Program-made: the position numbers and the translations under genes
Source: Rubripirellula sp.
Lineage (GTDB): Bacteria; Planctomycetota; Planctomycetia; Pirellulales; Pirellulaceae
Reading direction: 5' to 3'
DNA length: 38,125 bases
Assembly: GCA_028823035.1 (NCBI GenBank)
Contig: JAPKCI010000037.1
Span: 1 to 38,125 of the forward strand
Shown: positions 24,082 to 26,742 of the stretch, one piece after another
Numbering within the stretch: the stretch's first letter is position 1
Layout: every line of letters begins with the position of its first letter
The notes under the pieces: model-generated
Told to the model about the DNA's origin: nothing
The model's database searches: none
What the model saw: only the letters and a program-made list of their open reading frames with translations

Positions 24082-24156
24082 CTGACTTCCGTAACGTTTT
24101 CAAGTTGTGCTGAACGACGATCGTGATTGCAGTTATCATCATACTGTTGAAACCAC

Positions 24157-24211: not shown

Positions 24212-24610
24212 ATGTTCGTTGTGCCGAACCTCCTCGTGACTGATGACGATAAAGCCTTTCGCAAGGTTGTTTGCGAAGGTCTTGCACGACGCGGTTTTCG
24301 AGTGACCGAGGCCTGTGATGGACGCGAAGCACTTGACTTGATCGAGCATTCACAGGTGCATGTCGCTTTGGTCGATATCCACATGCCCAACGTGAATGGG
24401 CTTGATGTAATTCGGCATTTGCACCAACGTCCATCCAGCCCGCCCTGTGTTTTGATGAGCGGTGAGTTGAATGATGAAATTCGTCGAGAAGCCCAACGGA
24501 TGCAGGTATACGATGTACTGAGCAAGCCTGTTCGCTTGGCGCAATTGACGACGATCGTCTCTGATGCACTGACTGAATATTACGGCTGGCAACCACCCCA
24601 AGCCAGTTGA
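24212..24610 (+). CDS. Single-domain response regulator (receiver only)
   Basis: From ATG 24212 the 132-residue protein is one CheY-like receiver domain with no output domain. The acidic pocket is LLVTDDDKAF (about 9-11), and the phospho-acceptor is Asp55 in VALVDIHMPNVNGLDV. The Thr/Ser switch is CVLMSGE and the conserved Lys is VLSKPVRLAQL. A start at 24107 would add 35 residues of no family character. It probably receives phosphate from a kinase elsewhere and acts by protein contact. The next gene in the same direction, 415 bp away, encodes a sensor-like TAXI protein, but the gap argues against a shared transcript. Confidence 0.85.
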   Translation: MFVVPNLLVTDDDKAFRKVVCEGLARRGFRVTEACDGREALDLIEHSQVHVALVDIHMPNVNGLDVIRHLHQRPSSPPCVLMSGELNDEIRREAQRMQVYDVLSKPVRLAQLTTIVSDALTEYYGWQPPQAS

Positions 24611-25025
24611 AGTTCCACAACCGTTAGATCTACTGAGCGATCTGCCAGACTCATCGGGTGGCTTCTGGAGTAAGTTTCAACACGCCTCAGTGCAGGCATA
24701 GGCATAGGCATAGGCATACTGAACGCACCAGAGTTACAACAGAGATAGTTGTGGATTGCTGAATGCCGAGCACCATTCGTTGCCGTTTCATTCAGGAAAG
24801 CTCTGGGCATGGTGCCGTTTGGTGCGGCATGGTCCAGTTTGTTACAAGCTGGCACTCACATGGTTCGAGGGAAATTGGATTTCAGCAATCAGTAAAGCTG
24901 AACCTCTGGTGTCATCGAGGCGACTGCACTTTCGGTCGTGTCCGTTACCCACGGTAGACTCGGAATGGTTTACGATGCAGTTCTCTGTCTTTGATGTCAC
25001 GACAACGGGTCATGGGTGAGTGGGG
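24611..25025. other. Intergenic region before the TAXI-type gene
   Basis: The only clear element in these 415 bp is a (GGCATA)4 microsatellite at 24695-24718. Short frames on both strands run through it (one reads MPMPMPMP), but they overlap neighbours or lack protein character. I see no firm promoter. Confidence 0.5.
24695..24718. repeat. Hexanucleotide repeat (GGCATA)4
   Basis: Four exact copies of GGCATA in tandem, intergenic. It is a likely length-variable microsatellite. Confidence 0.9.
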
Positions 25026-26432
25026 ATGGTAAATGACGCGAAACAATTGAAGTCTGAGGTGCTTTCCCCGCAAAATAAAGCGGAAGACATTGGAGGACCA
25101 GCGTCAATTCAACCTCGCCATCACTGGCGATTGGCAAGTCTGGTCGGGGTTCTGTCCCTCGCTGTACCTTTAGCCGCTTCCCTGATCTGGTTCAACTTTC
25201 TGTTTCCAACTCCAGGGAAGTACAGATTTGCTACCGGGTCCACTGCAGGTGTGTACGACAGTTTCGGTAATCTTTTCGCTGATGCGATGAAGGATTTTGA
25301 CGAAAGCATCGTCTTGGAAGTTACAGAGAGTGCTGGCAGCAAGGACAATGCGCGGCGACTCGAAGAAGGTGAGTGCCACTTCGCACTGCTTCAGAATGAC
25401 ACATCAGGTCAACGGTCTATCAGAAGCATTGCTGTCCTCTATGAAGAGACGCTTCATTTGGTGTGTCGCAAGGAGGCAAACATTCAAACGCTTTCAGATT
25501 TGGATGGTAAGGTCGTGGCTGTCGGCGAAGAATCCAGTGGAACATACTCTGTTGCAAATGCTCTGCTGGATTTTGCGTTGGGTGCCGGGTCGGCGGTCAA
25601 ACGGTTGCCGCTGAGCACAGTCGATACGCAGAACGGACTGCTGAGTGGTGAGATCGATGCGGCATTTTTTGTTTCCGGGTTGCGATCCAAGTCTCTCTTG
25701 GATTTGTTCAAAGATCCGTCGATGCAGTTGTTGCCGATCATGCCTGAAGTGGGACTCGGCGGCACAGATGATAACTCCGCGATGGAACTCGTCGAAGGAT
25801 TCAGGACCATCTATCCCTATGTTGAGGCTGCCACCGTTCCGATGAAAACGTACGGGGATTTACCCGTTCGAGCATTGCCGACGCTCAGTATTTCAGCCGT
25901 GCTTGTCTGCAGGGATGATGTGCCAAGAAGTGTCGTCAGCCAGGTCACTCATCTGCTATTTAAAGACAAAGCCGAACTTGCCAAACCACTGCCTCTTATT
26001 GCTGGCCTCAGCGAGAGCAATGCAACCAAGGGGCTGCAATTTTCAGTGCATGAGGGAGCGGACGATTATTACCGTCGACGCGAACCAGGGTTTTTGGCAG
26101 AGCATGCTGAATCGATGGGATTTGTCCTGACGCTCATTCTGTTGGGGTGGAGTGCCATTTCGGGAATCACATCGTTACGCCGCAAAGAGGCAAAAGACCA
26201 GATTGATCAGTACTACCAACGTGTGCTGGTGATTCATGATCGGATACACGACTGCAAAACTGAAGAGGCGCGAGTCACCCTTTATGCTGAGCTTGTCGCT
26301 ATCGAGCGGGAATCCAAACTCGAATTGATCGGGGAAACGCTCAGGCCGGACAACTCATTCGTCGTCTTGCAGAATATGCTTGCCAGTTCCATGGACGAAT
26401 TAAGGCCACCGAATCATCCTGCCGAAGGGTAA
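25026..26432 (+). CDS. TAXI-type (NMT1-like) solute-binding domain anchored by two membrane helices
   Basis: The 468-residue protein starts at ATG 25026 (GGGTGAG at 25014-25020 as Shine-Dalgarno; GTG 25020 is an alternative). Helix one is at about 38-62 (LASLVGVLSLAVPLAASLIWF). The periplasmic part (about 65-350) has TAXI/TRAP-binding-protein features: YRFATGSTAGVYDSFGNLFADAM, NARRLEEGECHFALLQND, LDGKVVAVGEESSGTYSVA and SGEIDAAFFVSG. Helix two is at about 364-386 (GFVLTLILLGWSAISGITSL), then a cytoplasmic helical tail of ~80 residues with many charged positions (KEAKDQIDQYYQRVLVIHDRI). Ordinary TAXI proteins are secreted and work with DctQ/DctM permease subunits, none of which is encoded in the window. 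This layout suggests a sensor or a membrane-held binding protein; I infer that from topology. Confidence 0.8.
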   Translation: MVNDAKQLKSEVLSPQNKAEDIGGPASIQPRHHWRLASLVGVLSLAVPLAASLIWFNFLFPTPGKYRFATGSTAGVYDSFGNLFADAMKDFDESIVLEVTESAGSKDNARRLEEGECHFALLQNDTSGQRSIRSIAVLYEETLHLVCRKEANIQTLSDLDGKVVAVGEESSGTYSVANALLDFALGAGSAVKRLPLSTVDTQNGLLSGEIDAAFFVSGLRSKSLLDLFKDPSMQLLPIMPEVGLGGTDDNSAMELVEGFRTIYPYVEAATVPMKTYGDLPVRALPTLSISAVLVCRDDVPRSVVSQVTHLLFKDKAELAKPLPLIAGLSESNATKGLQFSVHEGADDYYRRREPGFLAEHAESMGFVLTLILLGWSAISGITSLRRKEAKDQIDQYYQRVLVIHDRIHDCKTEEARVTLYAELVAIERESKLELIGETLRPDNSFVVLQNMLASSMDELRPPNHPAEG

Positions 26433-26710
26433 AACAGTGCATGGCTCTGAAGTTCAAGGCAATCCTGCGTCAGTCTGTGAGTTCTGGCCGGTAGACCTGG
26501 CGAACTTGTGCCACGAGGATCTTAACGGTCGAAATCCTGATTGGTTGGCGTGGGCGGCCTGCAGGAACTTCGGAACGGTTTTTGAGATTGCACCCCCCGG
26601 CAGCCTCTCTCGATAGCACGGAATGTTGTTTGACAATGACAACAGCAGCGTACTCAGACTGGCATTTGTTATCGGGTGACTGTCTGCGAGCCTGCTTCGG
26701 TGGATCGATT

Positions 26711-26742
26711 ACCTGTAAATTACAGGTGCCTGTTTGTACAAT
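26711..26742 (+). promoter_or_regulatory. Perfect 17-bp palindrome and -10 element upstream of the sulfatase operon
   Basis: ACCTGTAA-A-TTACAGGT (26711-26727) is a perfect palindrome with one central base. TACAAT at 26737-26742 matches the sigma-70 -10 at 5 of 6 positions and overlaps a second small palindrome TTGTACAA (26734-26741). The 17-bp element would cover the -35 position, so it is a plausible operator. It ends 58 bp before the sulfatase ATG. The rest of the 352-bp gap (26433-26784) shows no gene. Confidence 0.4.

Follow-up and report, generated by a model that had tools for sequence, protein, structure and literature searches.

Binding-protein folds have been recruited for sensing in AioX and ArrX, which are periplasmic partners of histidine kinases. 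GlnH, of the actinobacterial GlnH-GlnX-PknG system, belongs to a family of substrate-binding proteins (SBPs) other than TAXI. In that system the amino-acid SBP is proposed to feed an intracellular Ser/Thr kinase via a membrane protein, the three being separate proteins encoded in one operon (PMC8546545). Within the TAXI family, whose association with TRAP transporters is discussed in general terms in PMC5812351, VcGluP (8s4j) is a monomer whose partner is a TRAP membrane component; the residues around its bound glutamate are S40, V44, Y45, Y46, S75, Q93, H123, E125, G156, D157, Y200, M201 and G203, with Y45 and Q93 being critical (PMC11574862). Other TAXI proteins bind 2-oxoglutarate or phthalate, and orphan TRAP SBP genes exist (PMC12344293). 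BP0403 of Bordetella is a lipoprotein in which globular and helical domains at the N-terminus are followed by a TAXI domain at the C-terminus, and it is translationally coupled to gltS. Since an orphan TAXI protein of another architecture is thus paired with GltS (PMC12344293), a missing TRAP permease does not prove sensing.

Here we describe P0001, a planctomycete TAXI protein predicted to span the membrane twice, with a cytoplasmic tail and no linked TRAP gene, differing in all of this from VcGluP. It has its fold in common with VcGluP and TtGluBP (1us4/8u79). Like BP0403, it lacks adjoining TRAP permease genes and is of unusual architecture, and its likeness to GlnH-GlnX-PknG is in outline only. 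AioX and ArrX, unlike P0001, have no membrane-spanning tail. Among the papers listed in searches of the open-licence literature, none concerns membrane-spanning TAXI receptors or TAXI kinases, and the consulted parts of a Rhodopirellula transcriptome paper (PMC2754498) make no mention of TAXI or TRAP.

Architecture and binding pocket of P0001

The window, that is, the whole stretch of 38,125 nucleotides that was analysed, is contig JAPKCI010000037.1 of a Rubripirellula sp. assembly (GCA_028823035.1). On its plus strand, positions 25026..26432 hold a gene with an ATG start that encodes P0001, a protein of 468 aa; an in-frame GTG at 25020 is another possible start, and hydropathy positions follow the 470-aa numbering of the corresponding frame (25020-26432). 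Residues 68-350 match PF16868 with an E of 3.4e-36 and 125.8 bits (cut-off 27), and the protein scores 155.3 bits against TIGR02122 TRAP_TAXI (cut-off 84.35); with both profiles above their curated cut-offs and a TAXI fold in the predicted structure, P0001 belongs to the TAXI family. Hydropathy detects two hydrophobic helices, at 38-56 and 368-386, and the flanking charges, five Lys or Arg residues before TM1 and five after TM2, fit an N-in/C-in topology. An AlphaFold2 model built from 11 sequences (mean pLDDT 84.5) gives, in order, a helix at 31-59, the TAXI fold, a continuous helix at 361-407 and two further helices at 413-435 and 443-459, and the same helix arrangement is obtained when the C-terminal 126 residues are modelled alone. 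The model aligns with 8u79 over 278 residues (Z 34.9, rmsd 2.0 Å) and with VcGluP 8s4j over 279 (Z 33.5, rmsd 2.3 Å); matches in the structural library, among them the structures of AioX and ArrX, are confined to residues 61-351.

Four features can be delineated within the gene, all on the plus strand. TM1 (residues 31-59; 25116..25202) is marked by the AlphaFold2 helix, hydropathy and low identity as a poorly conserved signal anchor. It precedes the extracytoplasmic TAXI binding domain (residues 64-351; 25215..26078), which is assigned from profile, fold and pocket residues. The continuous helix 361-407 (26106..26246), in which TM2 is predicted to run on as a cytoplasmic stalk, is delimited by hydropathy, AlphaFold2 and identity. 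Finally, the cytoplasmic helical tail (residues 389-468; 26190..26429), with its helices 413-435 and 443-459, is recognised by alignment, profile and models. This arrangement bears out the first-pass annotation of the window, which had proposed a TAXI domain held between two membrane helices and followed by a tail of about 80 residues: profiles, hydropathy, flank charges and AlphaFold2 agree on it, the tail is predicted to be helical, and the C-terminal helix, whose solubility would have spoken against that proposal, contains the hydrophobic TM2. The TAXI domain would be outside the membrane, since lipoprotein-like signals, recognised by eye, precede it in two tail-bearing relatives (L162 and L166).

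Across the wider family of P0001 (11 rows), mean pairwise identity is 0.144 in the TM1 region (residues 31-61) and 0.409 in the linker and TM2 (352-388), the highest of the four regions compared; TM1 therefore looks like a plain anchor, and TM2 appears constrained. The tail also appears conserved, but at this breadth not more than the binding domain (0.304 vs 0.360). Proteins with this layout, TM-TAXI-TM followed by a conserved helical tail, are here defined as the tail-bearing anchored TAXI family, to which P0001 belongs. Profile searches matched no kinase domain in P0001, which is accordingly classed neither as a receptor Ser/Thr kinase nor as a histidine kinase.

P0001 keeps eight of the 13 VcGluP contact positions (S72, V76, Y77, S105, Q123, E141, G172 and G218), including those of the critical Y45 and Q93, and departs from it at five (D78, Y139, T173, F215 and V216), as read by eye in one alignment and from a second alignment that covered nine positions. 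At the positions of VcGluP Y45, Q93 and E125, the residues Y, Q and E are present in 42, 45 and 48 of 50 anchored rows, respectively, and in 24, 24 and 22 of the 24 rows of kinase-borne TAXI domains described below. Canonical planctomycete SBPs read F, N and N there in all 18 rows, a figure that stands for few independent events because these rows are near relatives; 16 of them have a TRAP DctM within 5 kb, and no row set includes the canonical SBP of G027, which the gene caller had passed over. The shared Y/Q/E against the F/N/N of the SBPs argues that the anchored and kinase forms have a glutamate-type pocket in common, and that canonical planctomycete TAXI SBPs probably bind something other than glutamate.

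TAXI classes and transporters in 60 genomes

The sample comprised 60 genomes, namely that of the window and 59 relatives, with TAXI matches in 42 of them. A second piece of one TAXI frame (G004:C482:3097-3306) was dropped before counting, and 85 of 86 TAXI rows were sorted into 19 of more than 150 bits (canonical SBPs), 41 mid-length frames and 25 frames of at least 600 aa. Frames were classed as anchored if they were 425-620 aa long or had a second hydrophobic segment; judged by hydropathy alone, TM2 passes the threshold of 1.6 in 23 of 37 anchored rows of one set and in 11 of 13 of another. DctM matches of 63 bits or more were taken as TRAP-scale; all those under 63 bits, together with second pieces of fused frames, were dropped from the DctM table. 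Defined in this way, a TRAP-scale DctM lies within 5 kb of 16 of the 19 canonical SBPs, of none of the 25 long frames and of none of the 41 mid-length anchored proteins, so that the adjacency to TRAP permeases that would have told against the first-pass proposal is not seen. Two of the three unlinked canonical SBPs are in assemblies of more than 1000 contigs (G008 and G015), and the third, in the one-contig assembly G027, is truly without linkage to a TRAP-scale DctM.

Moreover, 18 of the 42 TAXI-bearing genomes, three of them single-contig assemblies (G003, G032 and G041), have anchored or long forms only, with neither a canonical SBP nor a TRAP-scale DctM. At E <= 0.001, eight of these 18 show no DctM match, two have matches below the Pfam cut-off, and eight have weak ones (<=31.8 bits) that pass the cut-off of 23.8 alone or summed over the frame; frames of this kind in the genome of the window turn out to encode CitMHS and GntP. 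On the strength of these linkage and co-occurrence counts, service to a TRAP permease was rejected for the anchored class.

The contig of P0001 has no DctM match at E <= 0.001 in the profile search. In the genome of the window, DctM matches sit on the contigs C491, C60 and C443; the first is a fused DctQM of 774 aa, one such being present in the genome, and the other two contigs have weak matches, which belong to transporters of different kinds (CitMHS/TrkA_C and GntP). The absence of DctQ and DctM claimed at first thus holds for the neighbourhood of P0001, but not for the whole genome. Upstream of DctQM, contig C491 breaks inside the frame of an acidic EPKAEA repeat (L037:5797-6089), at the place where relatives have a canonical TAXI SBP adjoining DctQM. 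Because this repeat frame resembles the acidic low-complexity C-termini of several relatives' canonical SBPs, a TRAP-linked SBP is probably present in the window's genome, with its body missing from the assembly.

P0001 itself differs from a TRAP SBP in two respects, since its gene is not linked to a fused DctQM and the protein, with its TM2, is not a soluble or lipid-anchored one devoid of a C-terminal TM helix; none of the 18 canonical SBPs has a hydrophobic segment beyond residue 100. Nor is the gene adjacent or fused to gltS, as in the BP0403 type: the only GltS match of the genome is on another contig, C204. The best GltS scores, 43.6 bits for a single stretch and 58 bits for a whole frame, are both in the window's genome on that other contig. 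In ten of the 15 genomes tested there is no GltS match at E <= 0.001, a count on which service to GltS was set aside, and the matches in the other five pass the Pfam cut-off of 26.

All 41 mid-length frames were read. The P0001-type tail is present by profile in 23 (22 from the tail-profile search and one more, in G031, from a local search), 14 are nearest by BLAST to a second ('IYRWY') type, of which the window's genome has a paralogue at C277, and four are unassigned (L061, L193, L195 and L196). One scan with conserved-block patterns found relatives of P0001 at at least 11 loci in Rhodopirellula, Verrucomicrobiales and a cyanobacterium, and tail-bearing TM-TAXI-TM proteins are seen in Planctomycetota, Verrucomicrobiota, a cyanobacterium and Proteobacteria. 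The second type also occurs on Pseudomonas aeruginosa and Caballeronia plasmids, and proteins on Halioglobus and Methylobacterium plasmids are nearer to the P0001 type, as judged from four of 245 matching records; of the four, only the P. aeruginosa record annotates neighbours, and its 18 features include no TRAP gene. At the C-terminus of one SBP frame (L010:1213-2406), the translation ends in VSYTHLRAHETEADL, which resembles translated sequencing-adapter sequence and may be contamination.

The cytoplasmic tail and its genomic context

In an alignment of 17 tails, D394 of P0001 is the sole invariant Asp, and an Ala and an Asp are near-invariant. A profile of the tail gives 24 matches in 23 of the 60 genomes, of which 23 are in frames with a Pfam TAXI match; the 24th, L108 (G045), is a TAXI-like frame that scores 21.5 bits against PF16868, below the cut-off of 27. 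Across the phylum (294 genomes, the window's included), 22 of 23 matches are in TAXI frames, two of them cut short, and the remaining one is a chance match to an unrelated coiled-coil protein. No fusion of the tail to other domains was found among the profile matches, and larger open frames of 811, 734 and 704 aa, considered as tail fusions, turned out to encode TAXI proteins whose frames reach too far at the 5' end. In six close homologues from genus members, which form one close subgroup that is not P0001's own, mean pN amounts to 0.034 for the core of the tail, to 0.106 for TAXI and TM2 and to 0.467 for the extreme C-terminus, pN alone being used because dS is saturated; within this subgroup, the binding domain varies more than the tail core does. 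Comparison of the tail with Pfam (E <= 0.01) and with Foldseek (E <= 0.001) gives no match, the best Foldseek E being 0.85 and the hits mostly short, functionally uninformative helical bundles. Consequently, no output activity is recognised in the tail, and assignment to a known output domain was set aside.

The gene that precedes P0001 on the plus strand (24212..24610, with a start at 24107 or 24212) has Response_reg as its sole Pfam match at E <= 0.001, and is indeed the receiver-only response regulator that the first-pass annotation had named. The interval between this receiver and a sulfatase gene, delimited by synteny with relatives (24611..26733), holds the TAXI gene. The succession MoxR - receiver - sulfatase - PhoD is conserved in G005, G011, G009, G006, G018 and G020, with no TAXI gene between receiver and sulfatase; the gap there measures roughly 180-300 bp in five of these close relatives, and in G020 it is wider, at about 900 bp. 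The receiver adjoins MoxR in seven of the eight relatives read, the frame at that place in L135 having no match; in L130 (G005) its position was taken from the receiver search, the gene picker having chosen another frame over it. A receiver match at E <= 1e-25 is present in 17 of the tail-bearing genomes, and only in that of the window are the receiver and TAXI genes side by side. Of the remaining 16 genomes, 15 have them on separate contigs, an observation of little weight where assemblies are fragmented, and G003, a single contig, has them 1.07 Mb apart. Since the locus persists in six close relatives that have no TAXI gene there, the receiver is no conserved partner, and its candidacy, put forward on first reading, was rejected by synteny as far as a conserved pair is concerned.

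No telling repeats were seen at the junctions of the TAXI gene within 24611-26733, and its G+C is like that of its neighbours; a recent mobile-element insertion is not supported. Tandem copies of AGGCAT occur at 24694-24717, inside the same interval.

For the anchored proteins at large, 98 genes around 31 loci were compared, the cut genes L041:1-1269 and L054:3223-3666 having been left out of 100; genes of more than 1000 aa and frames with stops were skipped, and one of six pntAB loci stood for all. No Pfam family is found in more than three of these neighbours at E <= 1e-5, and no transporter is among their 25 commonest families. A sister form of tail-bearing TAXI lies beside pntB in six genus members (L042, L044, L045, L046, L048 and L049), with pntA also beside it in five of the six, whereas the contig of L048 ends in pntB.

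Kinase-borne TAXI domains and the proposed function of P0001

HRD and DFG motifs, hydropathy and similarity to the copy in the window's genome identify 24 of the 25 long frames as Ser/Thr kinase - one TM - TAXI proteins, the Pfam Pkinase test having been run on one long frame; the 25th, L109, bears the tail and has an extended N-terminus. In 19 of the 24 kinase-TAXI loci, an ECF sigma gene is found on the same strand, at most two genes away (six of the sigma genes were tested by Pfam, and L178, one of the five loci without sigma, is cut by the contig end), and the window's genome has such a pair on C333 (L063:5259-8264). On these grounds TAXI appears to serve as a sensor domain, in the window's genome as well. 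Like P0001, the kinase-TM-TAXI proteins carry a TAXI domain outside the membrane with a Y/Q/E pocket, and they represent the nearest apparent signalling use of the fold; unlike P0001, in which no catalytic domain is matched, they combine this domain with a cytoplasmic kinase and have just one TM, located ahead of it. No description of a TAXI-bearing kinase-sigma module was found among the open-licence papers listed, and TAXI and NMT1 are unnamed in the consulted main text of a survey of planctomycete Ser/Thr kinases (PMC11032199). The pairs seen here fit the kinase-controlled ECF factors reviewed in PMC8103513. Where region 2.2 has its DAED motif, the 19 sigma factors that accompany TAXI kinases read, by eye, D-P/A-A/S/L-D without a Glu, reminiscent of the altered DAED described for ECFs under kinase control (PMC8103513).

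A TAXI kinase is present in 14 of 23 tail-bearing genomes and absent in nine (Fisher P 0.014, phylogeny ignored and G031 not counted), and as an obligate partner of the tail it was discarded on account of these nine. In a tree of TAXI domains, from which L086 (partial) and L077, L079 and L080 (same genes as L040, L041 and L038) were left out, all 18 SBPs are on one side of a branch with SH-aLRT 100, and the eight kinase-borne domains included share a branch with eight anchored proteins (16 rows, SH-aLRT 96), one of which, L108, is very long-branched. The clade of P0001 is nearer to the SBP branch than to the kinase branch in this quick, midpoint-rooted tree with long branches flagged.

The reading that we favour, with somewhat better than even confidence and on the basis of sequences and models, is that P0001 is a receptor that spans the membrane, recognises a glutamate-like ligand and uses its tail to act on a partner encoded elsewhere. 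Specifically, the TAXI Venus-flytrap domain outside the cytoplasmic membrane would bind an anionic small molecule, with L-glutamate or a near analogue as the likeliest, and close upon it; the movement would pass via the conserved juxtamembrane segment and TM2, predicted to continue as a single helix into a cytoplasmic tail of three helices, and this tail may present the signal by changing its contact with the unlinked partner. The alignments and models document the architecture and its conservation, the lack of TRAP linkage, the conserved pocket and the same domain on kinases; from them we infer the ligand, the transmission of the signal and the partner. Against this reading speak the lack of any conserved signalling neighbour around the anchored loci, the tail's want of a recognised output activity, the nine tail-bearing genomes devoid of a TAXI kinase, the place of P0001's clade nearer to the SBPs in the tree, the lower identity of the tail than of the TAXI domain across its wider family, the weak DctM matches in eight of the 18 genomes without TRAP-scale DctM, and the GltS precedent. 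The earlier idea of a ligand sensor derived from a transport protein survives in its sensor-like half, supported by the lack of TRAP linkage, a tail confined to TAXI proteins, the glutamate-type pocket and the kinase-TM-TAXI proteins of the genome and its relatives, but not in its choice of the receiver as partner.

The main rival, credible because of the TAXI-GltS work (PMC12344293) and in our estimate unlikely, holds that P0001 serves as the tethered substrate-binding subunit of some transporter other than TRAP or GltS, its TM2 and tail docking to an unlinked permease through which the ligand is imported. Non-TRAP carriers can use TAXI proteins, as proposed for BP0403 and GltS (PMC12344293), the pocket of P0001 is intact, and its TM2 segment varies less than TM1, as might be expected of a docking helix; delivery outside the membrane, however, needs no slowly changing cytoplasmic tail, the commonest neighbour families include no transporter, and neither DctM nor GltS is matched at E <= 0.001 in G012, G023 and G026, which have the P0001-type tail, or in G041, which has the second type. 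It is very improbable that P0001 is an orphan second binding protein for the DctQM permease of its own genome (C491): that permease is present, but it has an adjacent SBP of its own in relatives and an apparent cut one on C491, canonical SBPs have a pocket unlike that of P0001, and in the 18 genomes described above the anchored or long forms occur without any TRAP-scale DctM.

A ligand-regulated accessory subunit, whose tail would directly control a cytoplasmic enzyme or membrane complex instead of a signalling cascade, is improbable to a lesser degree. The position of the sister form beside pntB, and beside pntA where the contig reaches, in all six genus members of one subgroup would suit such a role, as would a helical tail whose core is highly constrained in that subgroup; the linkage is limited to this close subgroup, however, the other loci read have other neighbours, and the pntB of the window's genome is on C78, not beside the P0001 gene. 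Least of all can we credit a pairing of P0001 with the receiver at 24212, which has in its favour that it is the next gene on the same strand: the TAXI gene is absent from the site in six relatives, the two genes are adjacent in one of the 17 genomes that have both, and a receiver needs a phosphodonor kinase, none of which is matched in P0001.

If the receptor reading of P0001 is extended to its family, tail-bearing TM-TAXI-TM proteins may be widespread, unrecognised one-chain receptors for glutamate-like ligands whose tail would feed Ser/Thr-kinase or other regulators, with the ECF-coupled TAXI kinases as a second sensory use of the fold, a generalisation that we offer tentatively and hold at rather less than even weight. 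Automatic annotation labels such proteins as TRAP transporter parts, as for the P. aeruginosa plasmid gene, and the label stands although 18 of the 42 TAXI-bearing genomes have no TRAP-scale permease match. Were these proteins receptors, the pocket (Y77, Q123 and E141), TM2 and the tail would be specific handles for testing, and many genomes would carry a mislabelled sensing system, hidden under the name of 'TRAP transporter solute-binding subunit'. In planctomycetes, the presence of TAXI kinases next to ECF sigma factors also points to an input signal that could be put to the test for a kinase-sigma module.
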